Of a DNA stretch of 47,542 bases, positions 23,164-46,102 are shown piece by piece. Under the pieces are notes generated by a model. The model had not been told where the DNA came from, did not search any database, and was given only the letters and a program-made list of their open reading frames with translations. Origin of the DNA: Priapulus caudatus (lineage: Eukaryota; Priapulida; Priapulimorpha; Priapulimorphida; Priapulidae); the NCBI RefSeq assembly GCF_000485595.1, contig NW_014578012.1, positions 68,843 through 116,384 of the forward strand, given 5' to 3'. The first letter of the stretch is position 1. Every line of letters begins with the position of its first letter. The position numbers were made by a program, and so were the translations under genes.

Positions 23164-23169
23164 TTTATT
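23164..23169 (-). promoter_or_regulatory. Poly(A) signal of RMI1
   Basis: The plus strand reads tttatt, which is AATAAA on the RMI1 strand, about 280 nt downstream of its stop codon at 23453-23451. Confidence 0.55.
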
Positions 23170-23450: not shown

Positions 23451-26400
23451 TCACCTAGCTTTTGTCTGCCGTAGCTGATGCAGATCGTCCTGCGTAACGG
23501 GTCGGCATGAGGTTACAATCGGACGCTGTTGATTGGCTTCTACATTAACGCTGAAGACTCCATAGAGATTGTACAGGTGGCTCCGAAGACTACTGCCAGC
23601 CTAGAGCAGGTGGAAATTGCTCATCTAAGACATCTCTAAAAACTATATACAGTAAAAAAGAGACATAGACATACCGTATACAGTGAAATTGGAAACTGTG
23701 CAAACATTTGTCTTTAAGTGCTGGATCATGCAAAATCACAAAATTGAGGTAATACGCAAAAATATGAAAACGAAACTAAATGTAACCTACCTGTTGCATG
23801 TCAGTGGCATTTACCATCTTACTCTCGGCTGCAGTGAATCCCAATAGTGCTGACACGTAGTGGTCACACAGTTCTACCTCCAAGTAAGCCGTGCCGTCAC
23901 TAACTGTCGCCTGCATAGCCCAGGACTGGCCACCAGAATTAATCTCAGATGTAATGGCTGCAATGAACCCCTGTTAAAAGTAAAACACTGTTTGTACATA
24001 CGTGTTTGGACATAGCTGAAAAGCAGCCTGTGGAAATCAACATGAGTGATGTATAAAAATACATACTGCATAATCAACTTTTCTCTGACAAATACTAGTG
24101 TAGATTGTGATTACACACAGAGAATAATCCTTGGGTTTTACCCAGTTTCTAAAATGACACAAAATATCAGACTTAGCCATGTGGCTGCTTTACTGTCACA
24201 CCTTTATGCACTTTACCTTAAATTTTACACGTTTTCCTGTGATGTGGGGGAGCAATATTTTCACTTTGTCCAGGCTGCTAAATGGTAGACAATCTAGTGC
24301 ACCTGTCATGCAGCATATTGACAATTCATCAGTAATTACACAACTTACAATGTAATGATTGATTTAATTATGGTAAAATATTACTCTAGAATATTTGAAT
24401 TTATTAAATTATAACCCCCACCCTAAATTTAATCTTAGTCACATTTTTTAATAAGGGTAGTAAATCCTTGATATGTAACTTAATACCTGCGAATAGGGAG
24501 CAAAACATTTTATCCTTCTTAATCCCACTCCAATTAGTTCACTGGATGATAAAAATTTTAATTATAGATGTAAACTATGGATATTTACATAACATGTAAT
24601 ATGGAATATAATACTATATTATAGAAACTACAAGTTTTTACACCAGTAGGATTTCAATACCAATGGCCTTGCTTCTGTCTGCACCACACAGTTCAGGGTA
24701 AGGCACAGGATCCATGGTCTTGCACACCTCTAAATGTGTCGGTATCTCTTCAACATCATGCTCGGTCAAACATCGGCAGGACACTAGCACTGGCCGCTGA
24801 TGACTACTCTGCATCTGGATGTCCAGCACGCCATATAGGTTTGCTAATTTTACCTGGCAATCGGCAAGTGCCTACAATTACAAACATTACTAAATTCAGT
24901 CAGGATCATGCATAGGATGTTGCCCATACACCTAAGCAATGCTTTAGACGCACACCACCACGAAAATAGTTGATGACAATTAAACTAAACCACATTTGTG
25001 TCAAAGAAGCACTCACACTTCTGTCATGAAAGACAAACAGAATTTGACAGAAAATTGAGTATCAACCACATCTGTTAAAAAATACATTCAATTGCTCTAA
25101 ATACAATCTATGTTATTGAGTTGGCAGGAGAATGATACATTACACTGAGTATTCTATCCTTAATCGCCGGATCATGCTTGACTCGAGCCTTCATTTCGTT
25201 GCACTGGGAAGCACTGAATCCAATCAGCGATGTCAGCAGTTCATCTCCAAGGTCAACATTGAGAGAAGAGGTCCCATCACTGAGCCTGGCCGTGAGCTTC
25301 CACAACTTTCCCTTGTCATTCTCCAATTTTGACGTAAGGGTTGACACGAATCCCTGAAAATACAGTTCACTAACTAACACTAACAGCACTGACCTATGAC
25401 ATAATATTCCAAACTTTGTTAATTCACTAAATTTGTTACAGTAGATGTTATTTACTGCTGCTCATACACAACAACTTTTATTATTCCCCACAAAGATTAC
25501 CACACCATCTACGTGCATGATTCACCTACATTATAAATGAACATTTCTAAAACCCCATGAATACATTCTTTTCTGAATAATTTACCCGGATTACGGCCGA
25601 ACTCCATGTAGAATTGGCAAGCATGTTCTGTAGGCTGTCCACATGAGAAAACGATTGTTCAGGGTGCTCAACCTTAGCAAAACCTTGACGAAACGACAGA
25701 GTGTCTGGAGACACATTGCGTGTGTTTGGCAATCCAGGACAAAGCGTGGGCGGTACCTTTTTCTGCCCACTGCTGCAGTTTATACCAGACACTGCACCGA
25801 CTGCAGTAGATTTACACCGAGTCTCCTGAAGTGTATCTCCGTGATGGCCAATTCTTCCTATCTTCCTTGCCGGTGCAAAATCTTCAAAATCATCATCAAC
25901 ACGACAAAGCTCTTCATCTGTTATGTCGATGGCACTATCAGGCATTGAGCCATGTGTCGTTGCTTGATTTGTGTGAGGAGAACTGTCTCCCGCTGCACTT
26001 ATGTGACCTCCTAGTGCCGTACAAAACGCACTATTGATCGGTGAATGTCTCAACTGGGCAGAATCCGACTTTGTTGCCTGTGCGCCTTGGGCAACAGTTG
26101 ACACTCCATGCTTACATGAGTTTGGATTGGATTGCTGGCAATCCACACCTCCATTTTCGAGATTCTGTGGCCAACTAACACGACTGCCATCTCCACGCCC
26201 GCCTACACTCCCTGGTTGTGCAGATGGATGCCTTCCATCAGATGGATTCTCATGGGTGGCACAATGATCAGCAGGACTTGTAGTGTAACGTGCCTTGTCA
26301 GCTCCCTGCACATGTGCAGCACTATGATGACCATCATGGTCACGTGTTGAACTGAGACCACTAAGGTGTGTACCGCTGGAGTTGGAATGTGCTGCTTGAC

Positions 26401-28300
26401 CCTGAAAGTCTAGATGCTCCATCAGTAGCTCGTCATCTATATCATCATCCTCCATCTAAAATGTATATTTCAGCTTTAGTGAACCAACTCACCTCACCTC
26501 ACCTTCTCACTCTTCTCACCTGGATAACCAGCTTCCCTCTGTCACTTCTGCTAAATACCAACATTTTTACAAAAGTAATATTACCAAATAATTCGAATAT
26601 TAGCAACTCAACATTATCAGTGCAATTTATTAATATCAAATAGTAAATATAACTTACCAGAGTATCATATTTCTGTGGTTGCAAGAAGTTTGGTTCATTG
26701 GTATCCATCATTTCCAGTAAGTGATCATCATCGATGGGGCCACGCAGCTGAGGTGGCTACAACATTGAATAAACATGGCATCCCTTGTCAAATAACTTAA
26801 AATTATTATTAATTGTTAAATAGTCCTTGTTGGATATATGACACTCACTAACATGACATTTCTTCCTAGTGAATTTTTTTACATGGACTCAGCCAATTGC
26901 ATAAATACTTCAAGTGCAACGTGCATGTACCAGGCTTTCACTGCAGATAGATCCTGTCGTAGATCTGGCCACTGCAGTCTGTGCTCCCATACTTTCTTCT
27001 GCTGTCCCCAAAACAGCTATATCATCCTGTGATTGAACAATGGCTTCCACAGGAAATTCTTCCCCTCTACAACATGATACAAGAAACACTTGATCTAGTT
27101 TTGTCTACACGCAACTAACATTATTGCTCAAATGTACAACAAAAAATACTACGGATTCTGTCGCTAATTGATCAGCTGCATCATAGCCCAGGGCCATTGT
27201 ATCAAGCTTACTTGTTAAAATTATACTTACACAGCCTGAGAAAGTAGTGCAATGCGTGAATGTGTCTGGAGTAGAGCATCCACTTCCCCACCAAGCACTC
27301 TAATGTTCTCTGGTTTAAGTAACAATGTGCCTAGCTTCACCAGTAATGGTCCCTGGACCATAACCTGCAAAATTTATGTCTACGTACCATGAAAAATATT
27401 GTGGCGTAAACATTATATAGTAATTAATAATAACAATTTTAATTAATAAGAATGTCTTTATAGGATAACTCTAATGTGGGTTCTATTTAACATATAATTA
27501 ACACACCTTTGTTCCAGGTGGTAAATCTGGAGTTAGAGCAGAGATGGGTTTGTACTCCATTGCTTTTAGAAGCTGCACTCCATCTGTTATGTCCATCATT
27601 AGCATTCTGCCTGATTGTGGCTCCCACTGAAATCAAGGGGGAATCAACCTATCACTCGTAATATCAGATAACCAAACGGAATTACTGGTACATTATCACC
27701 TAGAAATTCTCAAAGGAAAAGTATTGATTTTATTGGTAAGTGTAAAAATGGTCAGTGCACTATACTTTTATATTCTCAGTCTATTAAAGTTTACACATAC
27801 AGTCAAATGTGTACTATGCTCTTTTGCAAATTTAGTGCGTGGTCTTTAACTAGTAGAGTAAGTAAAAGTACAAATTACACTTTATAAGTTCAAAGCATTG
27901 ACCTTTTACATCATGTGTAAGATGGGGAAGCTAGTAAACATATTACTCACATTTGTCTGTGTTGGTTTGGATTCATCTATAAGAGCATTTTCATTTGCCT
28001 TGCCGCACAGCTGCTGCAATTGACTATAGGCTGGTTTGCTAACATCCATAAAAGATTCAACCTGACAAATATGCAGACATGTGAAAATATTGCTTGTTGC
28101 ATGAAATTTCATTAAAACATGGCAAATGGTATGAATTGGGTTTATGAGAATCAGGTTTACTGGCTGTAGACCTTAGAGGTATAGTTGCATTCAATTCACT
28201 GCATATCAAAATTTTTATGTTGTACACACAAAACATATGACAGTCAGTAAAATTGTCCAATGCTGATAACCCCCCCCCCCCCTCACACCACCACCACCAT

Positions 28301-28360
<60 letters not shown>

Positions 28361-31300
28361 CTGCAGAGCATGAGATCCTGTAAGGGTATTTGTGTGCATT
28401 TGACACAAGCCACTTGGTAGAGACCCACACTTTAGATCTTTTAAGTCAGTTACTAACCACTGCTCCAGTACGAGTTGCCTGATGTTGTTCTCAGGAATGG
28501 CCTGGCCCTGTGTTTAATATACAGAGAGGAAGTTTTCCACAAGACAGTCAGACAGTTCTTCTGTTAGACAGACAGTCAGACAGTAAGATCAAATTTTTTT
28601 TTAATAAATCGTGTTATACTTTGTGAATTAGTAGCATTAAACAGCCACGGAAATACATGACAAAAATTAATTATGTGACATTTCACTGAACAGTTCCTCA
28701 GAGATTGGACATTTAGTTTCCGTAACGGTCATGACAGAAAACGGACAAGGGTTATCACTGTACTGCACACATCATGAAAACTCTGTGAGCTCTATGGCTA
28801 CATCTTTCCAGTTTTTGTCTAATTCACATCCATAACCTTCTCATAACATAATCATAACCTTCTTGAACACAACTGTAAATGTTTTTAGGCGACTATCGTT
28901 CTGAAAATGGTACGTAAATAACGGACATATATCACACTTTCTGTGTAACAGACATAACAGTTTGTCCACTTTGTTCCAAGCTATCACACTTTCTTCTGAA
29001 GGAATTATGCCTTCATGTATAGTAAGAAAACAGGAGTCTGATTCATATCACATGCAATTCAAGTGAATTTATTACATTATGAAGTACTTACTAACCTTAG
29101 ATATGGTACTATACTACAACATGATTGGCAAATATATATTCATAAAACAGCATGTCAAAGAAATATACCTAAAAAATTGTTTTCAGTGAGCCTCAGCATC
29201 GGTGTTGTGATGAAAGTCAGTATGACTTAAAATATGAAGATTTAGACTTCACAAAAACACTTTTTTCACTGTTTTTACTTGAGTGAGTGAACGTTTTTCA
29301 TGGAATTGCCCATATATTAAATCACCATATACACAGATATATGTTAATGGTATAATTTATACTATAAGTATAACTATATCAAAGATTTATAGTTCAAAGA
29401 TTTATGGCCGCTAGTCTAGAAGACATGACCCATTGTGTATTGTATTGTAGACATGAAGTATTGTGGGACATGTCTTCTAGTTCTAGGCACAGGCACTTGG
29501 AGCGTTTCAATAAAATATAATGCTAAACAAGAGCCGCAGAGCGTCTGCATGGGCTCATCTGAGGTCTGTTGCTACGGTTATAAATAGTGATGTCACGATC
29601 ATCGATTATACTCGATCATCGGTTGAACAGTGGCTCGAACCAAGCGCTTAGTGATGTCACGATCATCGATTATACTCGATCATCGGTTGAACAGTGGCTC
29701 AAACCAAGCGCTTGGTTATCAAAATCCATAATCGATTTCATCGAAAAAAAAAAAAAGATGACTTGATAAGAAAACTTGGAAAAGTGATGAGAATCAGAGA
29801 TATCATCGCTACTATACAAGTTATCCTTTATTAACATACATGTATTATACACATAGTAGTAAACAGTGCAAAACAAACAGTAAACAGGGCTAAACAAGCA
29901 CATACATGCACACACGTACATGCACGCGACGTTACGCACACGCAGGCATTCAACACCCGAGTAACGCGATTGTAACCCGATCATCGGTTAATTGGTCCAA
30001 CCGATGATAGTTTCGAATTAGCAAACGATTGGACAACCTGAGTTATAAACGGAAGCATTGAAATCGTGCGTAGTGACATCTATTGTTAGTGCTGAGATAT
30101 GCAGATACGCAGTTGGCGTAGGACATCATTTCAGCAACGTTCTGCATTCTGCGCAATCCTTTCCCTAATCCGATTGGTTGATAGCAAAATCGCGTGTTGA
30201 ACTCTGTTTTAATGGTGACCTAACCTAACTATTAAAAAAAATAAAATAATTACTATGTTGTAACAATTATTTGTTGTTATGTAATTGTTGTAAATAAATA
30301 ATGTAAATATTTACGTAATTGGGAAAATAGTTAAATGGATAAGATAGAAAACTAGCAGAACCAGGTAAATAATAAAAATGGCAGATGGGATTCGATCAAC
30401 AACTTTGGCGCGTGATTCTGTGCTGTAGGGCGTTCGCTATCCAGGCTTATTGGTTTCTAGATTATGGATGTGGCCATGGGAATATGACAACAATGTGACG
30501 TCTTGAGGCAGTTAGGAATCATGTTTACTTCTTTGGGGTCAAAAGGTTATAGACATTCACTTTCGTACGTCAGTGAAGCACAGTTATGGTCGCTTTCATA
30601 AAGTGATAAAAGGTAGGTCAGGCGCTGAAAGCAAAAAAAGTTTTTCAAGCTCTGTCCATTAGCATGTCCTCAGAAAATGTGCTGGATATCTTGACTTTTC
30701 CCCACTGGCCCTTTGGACTGTGACTAAATTTCGCACTGGTGATGAGTTTCTGCCCATAACACTATAACCGGAATATTAAGAGCATAGGCTGAGCGTTAAA
30801 TTGTACCCAATTGCTGTATTTCGGCTCCTAAAGCTTAAGTTAAGGGGGAAATATTCCCCCTCGTTTACATATTTGACTTTGAACTTTGCCAAATTTGTAA
30901 CTCTGAGTCTTTTCACGAGCCCCCGCGACGTCGCGCAAATATCGTTACGGCCGGTACGTCGAGCGTTAAGATTGTGCCACTGTTGACTGAGGATGGCAGG
31001 GACGCACGCACTGACGCTGCACGGACGATCATGCGATTCTACAGTTCAGTGGGTCTTCGACTAACGTCAGATGAGCTATAAAACGAAATTATTTATACCA
31101 AGTTTCTATAGGCTCTTTTCACTATTATTGCGAACATGTTCCTGCAATGCCGTCAACCTGCTCATCTGCAACAAACGCTGCTGCCGCCATTGGATGCGGT
31201 GGGGCCACTGAACTAAATATTACTATAAATATATAACATAAATATGAGAGCACTATATATTTGGCCATGGCAACGCGACGTTTCGGACGAGGAGCCGCTA

Positions 31301-32221: not shown

Positions 32222-33188
32222 GGAGAGAGAGAGAGAGAGAGAGAGAGCTAGACATGATGCGGCCATGATGACAAGGCGCACCGAGGATTGAGTCTTGTGT
32301 CTTCCAATCACAGCCTATGCCGCACCAGTCTTTGGGGACCCATTGGACCACCAAATCGCCGATCTCAGGAACTAGGGCATTCTGCTATGTTAGAACGGTT
32401 TCCTACGATAGAGTTTGCCACAAATACGAAAATAACGCACTGTTTAGCACATTGCACTACGTCCTTCTGCTGCATTTTCGCATCTTCGTAATCAGAATAA
32501 GCCCCGCCTTCTTCGTTGATGGACATGAATGGGGCATCACCGACGTGACCAGTTACTGTACCTACTGTCTCTCGCCAGCCTGTTTACTTTTCGTAAATAA
32601 TGAAATGCCCGGCCGATGCATTTCGCATCGAAGTGGAAAATTTTCAGCACCTGGAGGAGAGGTGACCGGTTCCGGACGCGTAGCCACTGCGATATATTTA
32701 TGTGTCAGTGTGCAGCGGCAGCCAGCGTTTGTTGCAGATGAGCATTTGAACGGCATTTGAAGGAAATTGTCGGCAATAATAGGTGAAAGAGAATAGGCCT
32801 AATGCCGCCTATAGAAACATTAACTTAAGACAGTTGAAAACTTTTGTCTTTGGTAGTAAATAGATTTCCTATTTATTTAGCATTATATTTTATTGAAACG
32901 CTCCAAGTGCATGTGCCATGATGTGGTTCTAACTTCTAAGTTCTACTCAGTACTCTAGCCACAAGTTCCCTTCTCGCTTAACACTACGTTGGGTCACACG
33001 TACCCTAACACAGCGTTGTAACAGTCGGAGAGCCTGGTCGGTTTACTCAGAGCCTAGGCCAGGGCCGATTTATGTACCTGGATCCGATGTTCGTCATGTA
33101 AGAAATCCACACAGGCGTCCAGCCATTCCGGAGGAACGCTGATGTGTTGAGCATTCAGCCATTGCCGTGTTCGATTGTTTACGTCCAT
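23451..33188 (-). CDS. RMI1: RecQ-mediated genome instability protein 1 with duplicated C-terminal OB module
   Basis: Twelve coding exons in order: 33188-33078, 28507-28361, 28061-27951, 27626-27507, 27364-27231, 27066-26931, 26756-26658, 26455-25586, 25353-25144, 24871-24644, 23970-23791 and 23600-23451. All phases match, giving 831 aa (human RMI1: 625). RMI1 is the OB-fold scaffold of the BLM-TOP3A-RMI dissolvasome. The N-terminal helical and OB1 region (aa 1-208) has VPPEWLDACVDFL, LVLEQWLVTDLKDL, SKPAYSQLQQL, LMMDITDGVQLLKAMEY, DLPPGTK and LLLKPENIRVLGGEVDALL. A disordered acidic linker follows (aa 209-576). Then come the RMI1 C-terminal OB module (aa 577-722; KLTARLSDGTSSLNVDLGDE, LLTSLIGFS) and a second homologous module (aa 723-831; ATVSDGTAYLEVELCDHYVS, ALLGFT). 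Exon 2 uses a GC donor. Intron 1 (4.6 kb) is repeat-laden. Confidence 0.92.
28270..28282. repeat. Poly(C) run
   Basis: Thirteen C residues on the plus strand (poly-G in the RMI1 transcript) in RMI1 intron 2, near the (CA)n tract. A cac/cca-rich stretch lies between the two. Confidence 0.9.
28302..28356. repeat. (CA)n microsatellite touching an RMI1 splice donor
   Basis: About 27 CA units; the RMI1 transcript reads (GU)n. The tract overlaps the donor hexamer of RMI1 exon 2, whose intron begins GCAAGT at 28360 and continues straight into GTGTGT. Confidence 0.95.
29404..29485. repeat. Short fold-back unit
   Basis: ctagtctagaagacatg on the left pairs with catgtcttctagttctagg on the right around a spacer of about 40 bp. 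It directly precedes the MITE terminus at 29486. It lies in RMI1 intron 1. Confidence 0.5.
29486..29527. mobile_element. Terminal fragment of the fold-back MITE family
   Basis: The sequence cacaggcacttggagcgttt and the next 20 bp match the left end of the 1216-2241 element almost exactly, then homology stops abruptly at aatgctaaac. It is a solo terminus in RMI1 intron 1. Confidence 0.75.
29587..29713. repeat. Two-copy 64-bp tandem duplication
   Basis: Units 29587-29650 and 29651-29713 differ at one or two positions. Each contains gatcatcgattatactcgat and the motif gatcatcggttgaac. Related catcggtt / aaccgatgat motifs recur at about 29975-30010, suggesting these belong to one larger degenerate element. 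Confidence 0.8.
31085..31170. mobile_element. Internal fragment of the fold-back MITE family
   Basis: ttcactattattgcgaacatgttcctgc...gctcatctgcaacaaacgc corresponds to about 1308-1380 of the 1216-2241 element, but diverged. It lies in RMI1 intron 1. Confidence 0.55.
31404..31797. mobile_element. Compact copy of the fold-back MITE
   Basis: Termini CAAGGCACTTGGAACG and, at the right, the complement of CACAGGCACTGGCAGCG match the 1216-2241 family. The internal blocks aagtcttaatgtttct and ggaattgtcggcaataata are shared. Flanking tgtgtgtg on both sides (31396-31403 and 31798-31805) fits an 8-bp duplication, but the right side lies in a GT-rich tract, so chance is possible. Confidence 0.7.
31848..32250. 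repeat. Long impure (GA)n microsatellite
   Basis: About 400 bp almost free of pyrimidines on the plus strand, with GA runs and ggga-type interruptions. It lies in RMI1 intron 1. Arg/Glu ORFs (plus) and Ser/Leu ORFs (minus) across it are composition artefacts. Confidence 0.95.
32690..32911. mobile_element. Right-end fragment of the fold-back MITE
   Basis: From gatatatttatgtgtcagtg to gaaacgctccaagtgcatgt it follows the right arm of the 1216-2241 element with a few insertions. The preceding 30 bp (ggtgaccggttccggacgcg and onward) match 232-262 near the left window edge. Confidence 0.75.
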
Positions 33189-39400: not shown

Positions 39401-40333
39401 TTCAATTTTGGATCGAACTGCTACTTATTAGATACATGGTACTTTCCTGGTTTAGTATGGGCTCTAGTATATATAGTGTTCTTATATTTTAGATACGAAT
39501 TCTACTGTATGCCACACATGGAGAAGTTGCCAAAGCTGTTCATCTCGATGGTGCACACTCTGTTTGGACCAGATTGGTAAAAAATACATCTACATATCCA
39601 TGTAAATACAAGTAAAATGAATATTAAATTAGTATTGCTGCAGCACTTGCCTCAAAACTTCGCTTATTCACTCATGAACATTAACCATTGTGATCATTCT
39701 GCAAGTATTTCGCATAATTCTTAGCCTCACCTCTTCCCTAGTTTTGACCTCTCCAAGCTGTGCCGTTTCATCCTGACTGTAAAACAGGGCTACCGTGATG
39801 TACCGTACCATAATTTCAAACATGCCTTCACTGTGACTCACTGTATGTTCCGTTTCCTGCACGAAAATCCTACGACATTTCCATTGATGGAGGTAATTAC
39901 CTGTGTAATCTTCAAAATGGGTTGATCTCCGTTAGATATACATGGCTTATACTGGTATCAATATTTAGGGACATAAATTATAAAAGGTGACAACTCAAGT
40001 TTCCAACTGCATGGTATATATAGATGGTTGTATGAGTTTAGCCAATAAATTGTATCACCATTCTAATATAATATGAAATCAACATGAAATCCAATGATTT
40101 ATGGCTGTTAGTAAATCACCCATAAGTAAAGATTAAAAAATAGGAGAATGTAGTGAGACAGCTTGTTTTTTTTTTAGAGGAAAGCACTGATATTTGCGTG
40201 CATATGCCATGACTTGGACCACCAAGGCTACAATAACATGTTCATGAAGACAATGAAGACACCACTGTCAGTTCTGTATGCAGAATCTATCATGGAGAGC
40301 CACCATTACCAGGAGACACTATTCATACTACAG
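33450..40333 (+). CDS. PDE10A: PDE10A-like cyclic nucleotide phosphodiesterase, 3' part missing
   Basis: Thirteen exons: 33450-33690, 34366-34553, 34951-35059, 35353-35537, 36003-36155, 36289-36420, 36649-36824, 37205-37297, 38147-38333, 38857-38999, 39493-39576, 39742-39892 and 40178-40333. They join in frame into 666 codons without a stop. PDE10 enzymes hydrolyse cAMP and cGMP. PDE10-type signatures are [15 protein letters not shown]...ELWLKQKK (N-terminal helix), GAF-A with [17 protein letters not shown] and [20 protein letters not shown], the linker [13 protein letters not shown], and GAF-B with [25 protein letters not shown] and [20 protein letters not shown]. In the catalytic start, YHNFKHAF (His587, His591) and CHDLDHQG (His625, Asp626) supply the acid and metal ligands. 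The second metal Asp and the invariant Gln would lie in exons I cannot find. Exon 1 is lineage-specific; an internal ATG at 34374 could be an alternative start. Confidence 0.88.
34165..34255. repeat. Alternating purine-pyrimidine tract
   Basis: A CA/TG-rich run with cgcgcgtgcatgtgtgcgcg in PDE10 intron 1. Its alternating composition could adopt Z-DNA. Confidence 0.7.
36173..36196. repeat. (TA)n microsatellite
   Basis: A short TA run in PDE10 intron 5, 18 bp downstream of the exon 5 donor. Confidence 0.9.
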
Positions 40334-40699
40334 GTGTGGATTTTCACATACACCCCTCTCTATCCGCGGCACCTCTCTCTCTGTCTCTCTCTCTGCGCGT
40401 TCTCTATCTCGTCGTCTCTCCCGGCCACCATCGGCCTGACGAAGATCTCATTCATCCGTGCTCGCCTCTCATTTTCCTCTCTCTCTCTCTCTCTCGCTCT
40501 TCGTCTTAACTGTCGCCTTTTGCCTCTTTCGCGTCTCTCTCTTCACGCGCGAAGACTACTCTCTCTCGTTGCTCATGCTCTGTGACCTCCCAAGGAGGAG
40601 TTGCCAACTCGCTTCTCCCGCGACACTGCTCGAGCTCTACAGTCAACCTCGCGTCTCGCCCGGCGGCGCTGCGTCTCACGTCCGCCCGGCGCCGAGCGA

Positions 40700-41300
40700 T
40701 TTGCGCGGCCGGCCCGCCGACTGAGTGCGCAGCAGTGCGGCAAATCTGTAAGCGCGGTACCCGGAGCGCAGCCAGCTTTCGGCGACCTAACCTGAAGTCG
40801 CATGGAGCCGGCGGGAAGCACGCGTGCGACACGATATATGCGGCCAGCGCTTCCTCAAGGAGCACTACGCTGCGACCACCTCGTCGTCAACACGGGCGCG
40901 CGGCCGCACCGCTGGCAGTGGTCGACGTGCGGAGATCCAGCGCGTTCTGCGGCGTGCGATCGAACCCCTGCGGAGCAGGCACGAGAAGATCCACGTAACG
41001 CGGCGCGCGTGAGTATCGGCTGTCGACGTGTGCCGCGAAGGCGTTTAGCTGCAGTCGCAGATCACTCCGCTCGGCGGCCACAAGGTGACCACTGCTAGCA
41101 ACGCCGTAAGCGGCAGCGCGGTGGCGGACGCGGATTCTCGCGCCCACTCAATCCCGGTACGGCCAACCTCAAAGTCGGCACATCTGAACGTGCACGGCGA
41201 AGACCGGCGACCCGTGTCGCGTGCTTACTGCGGCGCGCCGCAGTTTCACGACAAGAAGCAACATGCAGCCGCAACATGAAGGTCGCCTCAAAAGCCGGTG
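40700..41300 (+). pseudogene. C2H2 zinc-finger array broken by indels
   Basis: Across shifting frames the plus strand encodes finger motifs: DICGQRFLKEHY and, one base out of frame, DHLVVNTGARPHRW. Merged, these fit C-x2-C-x12-H-x3-H with a TGxRP linker, the last His being Asn. Next come STCG...LRSRHEKIH (H-x3-H) and then weaker fingers (CAAKAFSC; AYCGA...FTTRSNMQ). No single frame stays open through the array. Damage is mainly by one- or two-base indels, with few substitutions at key residues. It lies in a GC-rich block (about 40.37-42.17 kb) unlike the surrounding AT-rich DNA. It may be a pseudogene, or a real gene in poorly polished sequence. Confidence 0.5.
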
Positions 41301-42170
41301 CGGCCGGCGGCGGCATCGGCCGCAGGTGGCGTATGAGTACGCCGGACGGCCCGGCAGCCGGATTCGGCGGGGCAAGGGGTCGGGGTCGAGAGGGAGGGGA
41401 GAGGCGGCGGAAGCTCGGAGCGACGAACGACGAATAAGTAGGAGGAGGACGACTGACGGAGGAGGAGGAGGGACTCGGAAGGGAATAGACGGACTTGTCG
41501 ACAACTAACTTCGCTCGGCAACATGGTCTTGCGGCCCGATGGCAGCGCCGCTTACGACGCAAACCTTCGTAACGCGGGCGGCGGCTGCGGCCTGCAACCG
41601 TGTCTCCTCCGGTTACTCTCTTTTCTCTCCTCAACTACGCAGGGACTGGCCTCCTCCGTCGCCCTCCACACAACACCACTGCGACAGCGCGAGGAGCCGG
41701 CGTGAGAAAGCCTGGAACATTCTCCACTCGACCTTCGACTCGGCGGATCTCTCTGCGGCGGTGGCTGACCTCGGCCTCAGCCTACTATCCAGATGCACAC
41801 CGCCCACCCGCTGGCCAGACAAAGCAGGATTCCGTCGACAAAGCAGACTCATAACGTGCGGCGGCGATGAGGAGACTACCGAGCTCTCTCCTCGTCCGCA
41901 GGGGGATCGGGCCCTCTCCGCTCCGTGAATCTTCCCGCTCTTACTTCGCTGGCGGCAGCTCTGAAGCTAACGCCGACGTTCCCGCTTCGTCCCTCCTCCA
42001 TTCAAGAGATCTTTCCTGGCTGTCTCTCTCTCCGCAGACCCCGCTGCAAGCAAGCACTTGGGCCGCCTCTCCCCATGCGGCAGTGTGGCAGGATGGGGAA
42101 CCAAAAAGGGCGGCTTCGTCGCGAGAGATCGTTTTCTCATCGTCGACTAAGCAATCGCGACGATGAGCTT
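41301..42170. other. GC-rich block without a supportable gene
   Basis: It continues the GC-rich character of the zinc-finger region. Overlapping ORFs run on both strands, as expected from composition. A tctctctccgcag acceptor-like site lies at about 42026-42038. I cannot support any gene model here; exons of the same zinc-finger locus are possible. Confidence 0.4.
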
Positions 42171-43860
42171 GTTGTTGGAAGTAGGACGTACGAAAGTATA
42201 CATATGATCGTCAACGTCGGCCCAGCGTTAGGCAGTACTTTGAAGCTCGAGCCTTCGAGGCATTTTTTAAGTTGTAAGAAGAGATGTAATGCTGCTGCCC
42301 TCCCCATTAATTGTATATCATGGATTGTGAAAAAATCCTCTATAAGATGGATTAAAAAAAAATTCTTAAAGCTATATTTATGTGTTTATTAAGAATAGCA
42401 TGAATCTATTTATTAGTGCAGGGAAACGAAATGAAAGCTATTACGAATCAATCTAGCACAAACATTTGAATCGTTGTAAATTTTAGAAAAATGTTTGTGT
42501 TCAATACGACATTTTAGTCGTTGAAATTTTTCCATCGCAGTCTTGTACGATATTCGTACTTGTAAATCTTGTATATGTAACATATATACATATGCCGCTA
42601 TTTTGTGACTTATAGACGCATTTTATTATCTCTCGGTAAATGTCTAGAATGTAAAACGCATTGCATCTATATGCAGAAGGTCATGGGTGACAAGAAAGTT
42701 TGCAGTTTTAAATGGCTATCTTATTGTGCGTGTGTGTAAAATAGAAAACAAGGGGAAAAATCTGAGCAATACTGTTGCACTTAATATGTTCGACTTGAGC
42801 AAGGTATCTATGAGAAACGTTTTCACCGGCCTGTGTTTAGCCGAATTCTTTTGTTTTTCCAGCTTCAGTGCGTGTTCACTAACTAATGCTGATGGTGAAG
42901 AGAGCCTTCAGGTACAGAAAGACGCTGAGGGACCAAAACAGAAACAACTGAGGGTGGCAGTCCCGACCTTCATTATTGAGCATCAGACGGTGTTGTGGGC
43001 AGGGCTATCCATGGCAAGTCGAACTTTTTCTGGATTATTCCCTTCTGAATTTGGCGTGCAGTTAACCCCATTAAGAAGCGTTCTATCGGCTAGGAAAATA
43101 CGGTATATAATATATATATTGTTGTTGTATAGAGTTATTCTTATAGTATGTTATCACAGTAGTTATTCTAACCCACTTGTTATAGAATCCCCGATATACC
43201 TCAGCCACGCGTTGTGCTGTTATGGACACCTTTCGCCCTTTCAGATTTTTTTTTGATACTAGTAAGATTTAGTCGAGTCCTCGAATGAAAAAGGAATCGA
43301 GGCAGGGCCCCGTCTGTCCATAAATCAATTGTGTAATGGACTTCTCGTCTTTAATGAATCATTGTCTATAAATATCCTACATAGTCCTCTATAGTAATAC
43401 ATAGTCCTTAGTATCGATAGTGTCTATGATATCGTTATGACTATATATGAATTTAAAAATGTCTTTTTTATGATTTTAAAAATGTAAAATTTAATTTTGC
43501 CACCAACGCGTCACGTGGCCACGACGTAAGAACGTCACAAGTAAGTCGTGTTCTGACAGGGGCCCCGGTTTTAGAATGTGCCCGCGTTTTTGCATTGGTG
43601 TGAGAGGTAGTTTGTATAAATAAGATAATTTGTTGTCCAGGGACTGTGTAGGCTCTCCCTCGAACCTGTTTAGCCGTTGACATGCGGATTGTTAGCAGGA
43701 ACAGCGAATAGCTATCTAGAAGCACACGAAAAAATAAAACCCTCATGTGTACAAAACAGAGCGTGTACTTCTGTTGTTTGGTAACTGTCGATTGTGGACG
43801 CTCCTGAAAATACATTAATAACATATAAAGCTGTAAAAGCCGGTTTGTTGTATGTGAAAA
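42171..43860. other. AT-rich stretch without an identified gene
   Basis: The composition returns to AT-rich. A plus-strand ORF 42687-43256 (189 codons, first codon GTG) has a moderately coding-like central part (TNADGEESLQVQKDAEGPKQ; then VPTFIIEHQTVLWAGLSMAS) preceded by an acceptor-like ttttccag at about 42855-42862. I recognise no family. No PDE10 catalytic exon (expected LEGHNIF-type block) was found here. Confidence 0.4.
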
Positions 43861-43879
43861 GGTCCGGTTTAGAAAGTTG

Positions 43880-45150
43880 GTCGCAAGAAAGCAAGGGCGG
43901 GTGGCTAGGAGAGTGGAGACAAGAACGAGGAGGGACCCGCGGAGGAGGGAGGAGTAGGGTGGCGAGGTGGCAGACGAGACGAGAGAGGGCAGGAGTAGGG
44001 TGGCGAGAGGTGGAAGCACGGGAGGAGGCGTGGCGTGGAGAAGAGACGGGAGGGAGGGAGGAGTAGGTGGCGAGGAGACGAGACGCAAAGACGAGGAGGA
44101 GGAGAGTGGGCGAGAGGTGGAGACGAAGACGAAGAGAGGGGAGGATGAGGGTGGCGTGGGAGACAGAGAGAGGTGGCAGAGCGAGGTGTGAAGACGAGAA
44201 CCAAAGGAGGGCAGGAGTAGGGCATGGCAGTGAGATGAATGAGAGGAGGAAGCGAGGAGGTGCAGCGAGGAGACGAGAGGAGTGGAGGAGTAGGGTAGGC
44301 GTGGGAGACGAGAAAGCGAGAGTAGGGAAGGAGTAGGTGGCGTGGAGACGGACGAGAGGAGGGAGGAGTAGGGTGGCAAGGATTTGTGAGACGAAGAGCG
44401 CAGAGGAGGAGGGAGTAGATGGCGAGGAGACGAGAGGAGGAGGAGTAGAGGTGGCGCGAGGAGGAGACGAGACGAGAGGAGGGCAGGAGGAGGTGGAACG
44501 AGACGACAGAGGAAGGGAGGAGGAGAGTGGCGCGAGGTGAGAACGAGAACGAGAGGAAGGAGGAGGAGGGTGGCGCGGAGAGGAGACGAGAACAGAAGGA
44601 GGGAGAGGAGGGTGAGCGTGGAGGTGGAGACGGATGACGAGAGAAAGAGGTGGCGCGAAGGAGGAACGAGACGAGACCAGGATGGGAAAGGGGGAGAGGA
44701 GAGGGTGGCGTGGAGACGAGACAAGAGGAGGGAGAGTAAGGAGGTGGTGAAGGAGACGAAGACGAGAAGGAGGAGCGAGGATGTGGCGTGGAGACGGGAG
44801 GAGAAGTGGTGATGGAGACGAGAAGAGGGAGGAGTAGGGTGTGTGGAGACGAGACGGGAAGAGGGAGAGGAGGTGGCGATGGAGAAAGCGGGAGAGGAAG
44901 ATGGTGGTGAGGAGACGAGAAGACGGAGGAGTAAGGGTGGCGGTGGAGAACGAGACCGGGAGAGGGAGGAGTAGAGGTGGCGTGGAGAAGAGACGGGAGG
45001 AGAAAGGAGTAGGGGGCGTGGAGAAGAGAACCGGGAGGAGGGAAGGAGTAGGGTGGTGAGGAGACGAGACGAAGGAGGAGGAGGAGAGTGGCGAAGAGAG
45101 GTGAGAACCGAGACTAGAGGAGGGGCAGGAGGAGTCTCCATGCAGACGAA
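43880..45150. repeat. Irregular purine-rich minisatellite
   Basis: A degenerate tandem array whose units of roughly 35-50 bp are variants of gtggcg(t/a)ggagacgagac followed by gagaggagggaggagtag. Unit length is irregular, with many single-base insertions and deletions. Long ORFs on both strands here (Ser/Leu/Pro on minus, Arg/Glu/Gly on plus) are composition artefacts. Confidence 0.85.
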
Positions 45151-45224
45151 CAGACGAGAACCGGGAAGCGTGAGGTCAGACGGCAATGCCAGTGCCGCCT
45201 TGGTCGAGAAGATAGAAGAAGGGA

Positions 45225-46102
45225 GAGACGGAAAAGAGAGAGAGAGAGAGAGAGACGATGAGTGGGGGGGAAAGAGACGAAGAGAGTAGAGAGAGAGAGA
45301 TAGAGGGAGGAGACGGCAGATAGATGGAGGGGGAAGAAGGCGAGAGCAGAGTTAAGGGAAGGAAGTCAAGAGAGAGCGGGAGGGCACGGGCAGAGAGAGA
45401 GAGAAAGAGAGAGAGACGAGAGAGGAGAGAGAGAGAGAGGCAGAGCAGAGGAGGAGACGAAGCGACGAGATCGAGAGCGAGGACGGGAAAGAGAGGCGGG
45501 AAGACGCGCGAAAGAGGTAGGCGACAGGAGCGCGAGAGAGAGAGAGAAAGACAAGAGAGAAAGAAGCGAGGAGGCGCAGGGAGAAGAGCAGCAGAACGAG
45601 CAGAGAGAGAGAGAGAGAGAAGAGAGGGAGAGAGAGAGCAGAGAGAGAGAGAGAATAGAAGAGAAGACAAGAAGAGAGAGAGAGAGAGAGAGGAGAGAAA
45701 GAGTCAGAAAAAAGGCGTGCAGACGTGAAACGCGCACGCCACTAGAAGGAAGAGCGAGTGAGGTTCTTACAGAGAGCATGGTGGAGCAAACAATACAGAG
45801 AGAAGGGTGCAAATCAAATACAGAAGAACGGGAGGGCAAACATACAGAGAGAAAGGGAGAGTGAGCGATACAGAGAGAAAGGGAGCAGCAATACAGAAAG
45901 AGACAAGGGAGCACTAATCCAAGAGAGAAAGGAAGCGAACCAATAACAGAGAGAAAAGGAGCGAAGCAAGTGCAGAGAGAGACGAGATGAGAGAGAAGAG
46001 AGAGCAGAGAGACGAGAGGAGAGAGAGAGAGAGAGAGAGAGAGCGAGGAGAGAGAGAGACAGAGAGATGACGCGACGTCAGAGAGAGACGAGAGAGAGAG
46101 AG

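Follow-up and report, generated by a model that had tools for sequence, protein, structure and literature searches.

A second C-terminal OB fold in the predicted RMI1 protein of Priapulus caudatus, and its possible role as an RMI2-like partner

Results

The window analysed here is a stretch of 47,542 nucleotides from the marine penis worm Priapulus caudatus, a priapulid (NW_014578012.1, positions 68,843 to 116,384; contig C952 in the 385-Mb draft assembly of 2,952 contigs that we searched). On its minus strand, from 33188 to 23451, lies the gene for RMI1, a scaffold protein of DNA repair. Translation of our 13-exon model matches exactly the RefSeq predicted protein LOC106814612 isoform X2 (854 amino acids, aa). 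The Pfam domain RMI1_N_C (PF08585; DUF1767-OB1) is found once in this fused protein (E 1.7e-32), which identifies its N-terminal part as that of RMI1. Judged from its sequence, the gene encodes an RMI1 in which a single N-terminal domain is followed by two C-terminal OB folds, the predicted layout being DUF1767-OB1-(long linker)-OB2-OB2'. We refer to OB2 and OB2' as copy 1 and copy 2.

Two stretches of the protein match the Pfam domain RMI1_C (PF16099; 164.6 bits, E 1.6e-48 for the whole protein). Scored separately, each copy exceeds the cut-off of 27 bits, copy 1 with 97.1 bits (E 1.1e-27) and copy 2 with 76.1 bits (E 3.2e-21). The same profile, run across the whole assembly, gave two matches at E <= 0.001 (four candidates scored), and both are these copies. 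In a phmmer search of PDB sequences, both copies found the human RMI1 OB2 (best E 2e-15 for copy 1 and 1.3e-11 for copy 2), while neither found an RMI2 chain up to E 1. BLASTP aligns the two copies with 36 of 113 residues identical (32%), and the inner intron lies at the same alignment column (70), in phase 0, in both. An initial annotation, made from the letters alone, had proposed tandem homologous RMI1 C-terminal modules on the minus strand and expected an HMM search to return two of them; both points are borne out. The Pfam matches, the intron common to both copies and the agreement with the RefSeq protein support the view that the C-terminal OB fold of RMI1 was duplicated in tandem within one gene. 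The joining of both copies in a single transcript is predicted by the gene model.

Next, we scanned 119 RMI1 homologues, 113 from a second protein search and the rest from a first, using an OB2 profile derived from nine homologues other than Priapulus. The profile matches 118 of them, finding one OB2 in 117 and two in the Priapulus protein alone, where the second follows the first; P0119 (Rhamnusium) gave no OB2 match. A single OB2, which is a usual rather than a defining feature of RMI1, is thus not what Priapulus has. The named homologues are mostly vertebrate. Ecdysozoans are represented by two horseshoe crabs, two spiders, a woodlouse (two records), Rhamnusium and Priapulus, and P. caudatus is the only priapulid named. 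Titles and the opening parts of abstracts yielded no report of a doubled OB2, and none of the papers searched combines 'Priapulus caudatus' and 'RMI1'.

The exon structure of the second copy required correction. The first two bases of exon 11 finish a split codon, and read in phase 0 the exon runs into a TAG at its third codon. It therefore needs a phase-1 donor, and the phase-0 donor at 24644 cannot join it; this donor was rejected, the model equal to the RefSeq protein using 24661. RefSeq likewise picks the 24661 donor and exon 11. Joining 24644 directly to exon 12 keeps the frame and omits exon 11, and was also rejected. Three exons of the initial annotation (25353-25144, 23970-23791 and 23600-23451) were correct, but the fourth, given as 24871-24644, really ends at 24661 in phase 1. 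The 86-nucleotide exon 24302-24217, which starts the second domain, had been missed. The description of both modules as two-exon cassettes with phase-0 borders consequently falls, copy 2 being a three-exon module whose first border is in phase 1. The helix encoded by exon 11 (residues 727-736) is the counterpart of the copy 1 helix 558-567, so that the whole domain, beyond the barrel alone, has been doubled.

Table 1. Coding exons of RMI1 and candidate polyadenylation signals (positions in the window)
Feature	Position	Strand	Basis
Exon 1, first coding exon of RMI1 (MDVNNRTRQWLNAQHISVPPEWLDACVDFLHDEHRIQ)	33078..33188	-	start codon at 33188; model equals RefSeq protein
Exon 2 (exons 2-7: rest of DUF1767 region, OB1, linker start)	28361..28507	-	splice model
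Exon 3	27951..28061	-	splice model
Exon 4	27507..27626	-	splice model
Exon 5	27231..27364	-	splice model
Exon 6	26931..27066	-	splice model
Exon 7	26658..26756	-	splice model
Exon 8, long linker; 3' end is leading helix of OB2 copy 1	25586..26455	-	splice model; model helix 558-567
Exon 9, OB2 copy 1 first part, aa 577-646	25144..25353	-	Pfam RMI1_C; PF16099 genome match
Exon 10, OB2 copy 1 second part; weak donor ATTG/gtattg, phase 1	24661..24871	-	model equals RefSeq protein
Exon 11, 86 nucleotides, leading helix of OB2 copy 2 (ALDCLPFSSLDKVKILLPHITGKRVKFK)	24217..24302	-	splice model; model helix 727-736
Exon 12, OB2 copy 2 first part, aa 746-805	23791..23970	-	Pfam RMI1_C; PF16099 genome match
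Exon 13, OB2 copy 2 second part and TGA stop	23451..23600	-	model equals RefSeq protein
Intronic AATAAA between exons 10 and 11, possible premature poly(A) signal	24400..24405	-	hexamer scan
AATAAA past the TGA stop of exon 13, putative poly(A) signal of full gene	23164..23169	-	hexamer scan

Intron 1 contains, at about 29586-29713 of the minus strand, a 64-base unit present twice head-to-tail (starts 29713 and 29649).

Alignment of the copies covers 109 residues, 38 of them identical, with a proportion of synonymous differences (pS) of 0.76, which is saturated, and of nonsynonymous differences (pN) of 0.44. A recent duplication was rejected on account of this saturation, and pN below pS points to selection. 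Given the gene model, the sequence marks OB2' as an old tandem duplicate of the C-terminal exons, kept by purifying selection. Among 32 positions conserved in 22 single-copy rows, copy 1 keeps 19 and copy 2 keeps 17; single-copy rows left out one at a time keep 21 to 32 of 32 to 36 conserved positions. The conserved OB2 positions lost from copy 2 include the CQ pair.

In a domain tree of 24 rows, chosen from the 119 proteins plus the second Priapulus copy, the two copies are sisters, the support of 78/84 not being strong. Copy 2, Antedon and two others form long branches, that of copy 2 measuring 2.56 against 1.15 for copy 1. Eight residues are common to both copies and occur in no more than one row among 14 others. 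A test of pair-private residues went against closeness: the Priapulus pair falls outside the 10 best of 120 pairs, with about one private residue, near the mean of 1.2. Since the sister placement has modest support and this test opposes it, we regard an origin within the priapulid line as no more than likely.

A six-frame search of the genome with the RMI2 profile (PF16100) returned neither a match at E <= 1 nor a first-look candidate, which does not in itself show absence. The same search was silent in all 14 control genomes, so that the genome check proposed by the initial annotation gave zero matches but had no positive control for RMI2. The sole control for the genome search was a small gene, CENP-S, and it was found in the Priapulus assembly (11 matches at E <= 1, of which three pass the cut-off; two of these lie side by side on contig C92). 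Non-detection of RMI2 is suggestive, not proof.

The predicted single-chain structure has a predicted template modelling score (pTM) of 0.37. Most of the exon 8 linker region is of low confidence, and the linker between the copies (699-722) falls below 50 in the predicted local distance difference test (pLDDT). When the structure of copy 2 was compared with known folds, no RMI2 chain appeared among the 50 rows shown, one per entry, and none of these rows sets copy 2 against a chain of RMI1 or RMI2. The trimerization OB of RPA70 (1l1o_F) shares 15% identity with the priapulid domain, a common fold that says nothing on function.

Elsewhere in the window, the plus strand, opposite to RMI1, carries an exon of a cyclic-nucleotide phosphodiesterase at 40178-40447 (PDEase_I, E 7.6e-17); eight other open frames of the window had no match in the same Pfam scan. 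GC content reaches 0.590 at 40001-42000 and 0.575 at 44001-46000, versus 0.33-0.46 in other steps, and the latter step shows strong purine skew (GC skew 0.656, AT skew 0.696). A 627-codon open stretch of the minus strand (43471-45351) overlaps it. Both high-GC steps are possibly repeats or an assembly oddity.

Discussion

RMI2 pairs with the OB2 of RMI1 and stabilises RMI1, according to the available excerpt of PMC8318279, and the title of PDB 4day states that the RMI1-RMI2 pair binds the MM2 peptide of FANCM. In the RMI core (PDB 3mxn, 3nbh, 4day) the OB2 of RMI1 meets the OB fold of RMI2 (OB3). Priapulus would likewise have two C-terminal OB folds to pair, with the difference that they stand in one chain, that both are RMI1_C and that copy 2 lacks an RMI2 match. 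We propose, with a probability of roughly 40%, that the second OB2 is an RMI2-like partner of the first, acting in cis. OB1 would still anchor TOP3A and BLM. Copy 1 would hold the RMI1 position and copy 2 that of OB3, the two C-terminal folds pairing with each other inside a single chain. Some 25 flexible residues (699-722 of the model) would link them, and the RMI core would thereby be built from one polypeptide. A comparable case may be nematode RMIF-2, as presented in the excerpt of PMC8318279: there too, in an ecdysozoan, another OB fold takes the place of RMI2. RMIF-2 is, however, a separate protein of uncertain ancestry, whereas the extra fold of Priapulus is a fused OB2 copy with a putative role.

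That RMI2 went undetected mildly favours replacement in cis. The fuller scenario, in which priapulids lost RMI2 and the duplicated OB2 became its substitute, giving a one-chain core, is more tentative and somewhat doubtful. From the same excerpt, RMI2 and RMIF-2 are mutually exclusive in nematodes, and a termite has RMI2 (PMC8318279). The accessible parts of two further papers state that RMI2 is absent in some lineages including invertebrates (PMC5157948) and date its origin to animals (PMC3969565). In Arabidopsis, 51 of 52 plants regained fertility with an RMI1 that lacks OB2, and in most lines repair of methyl methanesulfonate damage rose above that of the mutant, as far as the excerpt of PMC3814364 tells; changes of OB2 may thus be tolerated.

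Several observations weigh against pairing in cis. As RMI2 is reported absent elsewhere too, its loss in Priapulus, if real, need not be linked to the extra OB2. The PF16100 search works exon by exon and may miss a diverged RMI2. The profile has no match on copy 2 itself at E <= 10, so that this copy resembles RMI1, not RMI2. Both copies keep fewer conserved positions than any single-copy row (lowest 21/33), and OB2 conservation is accordingly lower in both than is usual. The single-chain structure prediction has a leading helix in both copies but gives no sign of docking between OB2 and OB2'; for copy 2 itself, hardly any sequences were aligned in that model (mean 0.05 of 33 rows). Finally, the donor at 24661, on which the fusion depends, scores weakly, at -3.92, the lowest of 11 scored and rank 14 of 38 GTs.

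If RMI2 was simply missed, and its absence has been weakly tested, the doubled domain could be a second docking platform, each OB2 binding RMI2, or copy 2 binding a FANCM-type peptide, RPA or DNA. The copies retain similar shares of conserved OB2 positions, partly different ones, as in divided labour. The assembly gives no RMI2 signal, however, and copy 2, on its longer branch, has lost the CQ pair together with other conserved positions, which makes this explanation rather unlikely.

The weak donor and the intronic AATAAA leave room for a shorter, single-OB2 isoform. Unspliced, exon 10 reaches an in-frame TAA at 24640-24638 six codons on (GIEILLV and stop), and polyadenylation at 24405 would then give an ordinary RMI1, the spliced form carrying both copies and the donor serving as a switch. 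But the donor inside copy 1 is about equally weak (-3.33) and must nevertheless be used, and with 52 AATAAA hexamers on the same strand of the window the intronic one is plausibly there by chance. Only one protein record, from a cluster of four members, was examined. We consider such a switch a less probable choice still.

Nor does it seem at all probable that copy 2 is a separate small gene of 140 aa (MTGALDC...), the fused model being a prediction error. An in-frame ATG does lie at 24309 of the minus strand, seven bases before exon 11, it opens an intact 140-codon frame, and a gap of some 330 bases with a poly(A) hexamer follows the copy 1 stop. RefSeq, however, presents the gene as fused across a frame-matched phase-1 junction, and a search with the 140-aa sequence by itself turned up nothing in that size class (of 10 candidates, none reached E <= 0.001).

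It is extremely improbable that copy 2 is an assembly artefact or a dying duplicate. The assembly is a draft and copy 2 evolves faster, but copies that are 32% identical and saturated at synonymous sites cannot stem from two haplotypes or from an assembly error, and selection is indicated by frames that stay open, by the splice sites and by a pN lower than pS. Mutually exclusive use of the copies is not favoured, because a join of exon 8 (phase 0) with exon 11 is out of frame and one with exon 12, which is in frame, loses the leading helix.

To return to the proposed pairing in cis, RMI2 has been lost or replaced in several ecdysozoans. A natural chain with two OB2 folds would be a different way of arriving at a two-OB core, and it offers a test of whether the task of RMI2 is simply to be a second OB fold.
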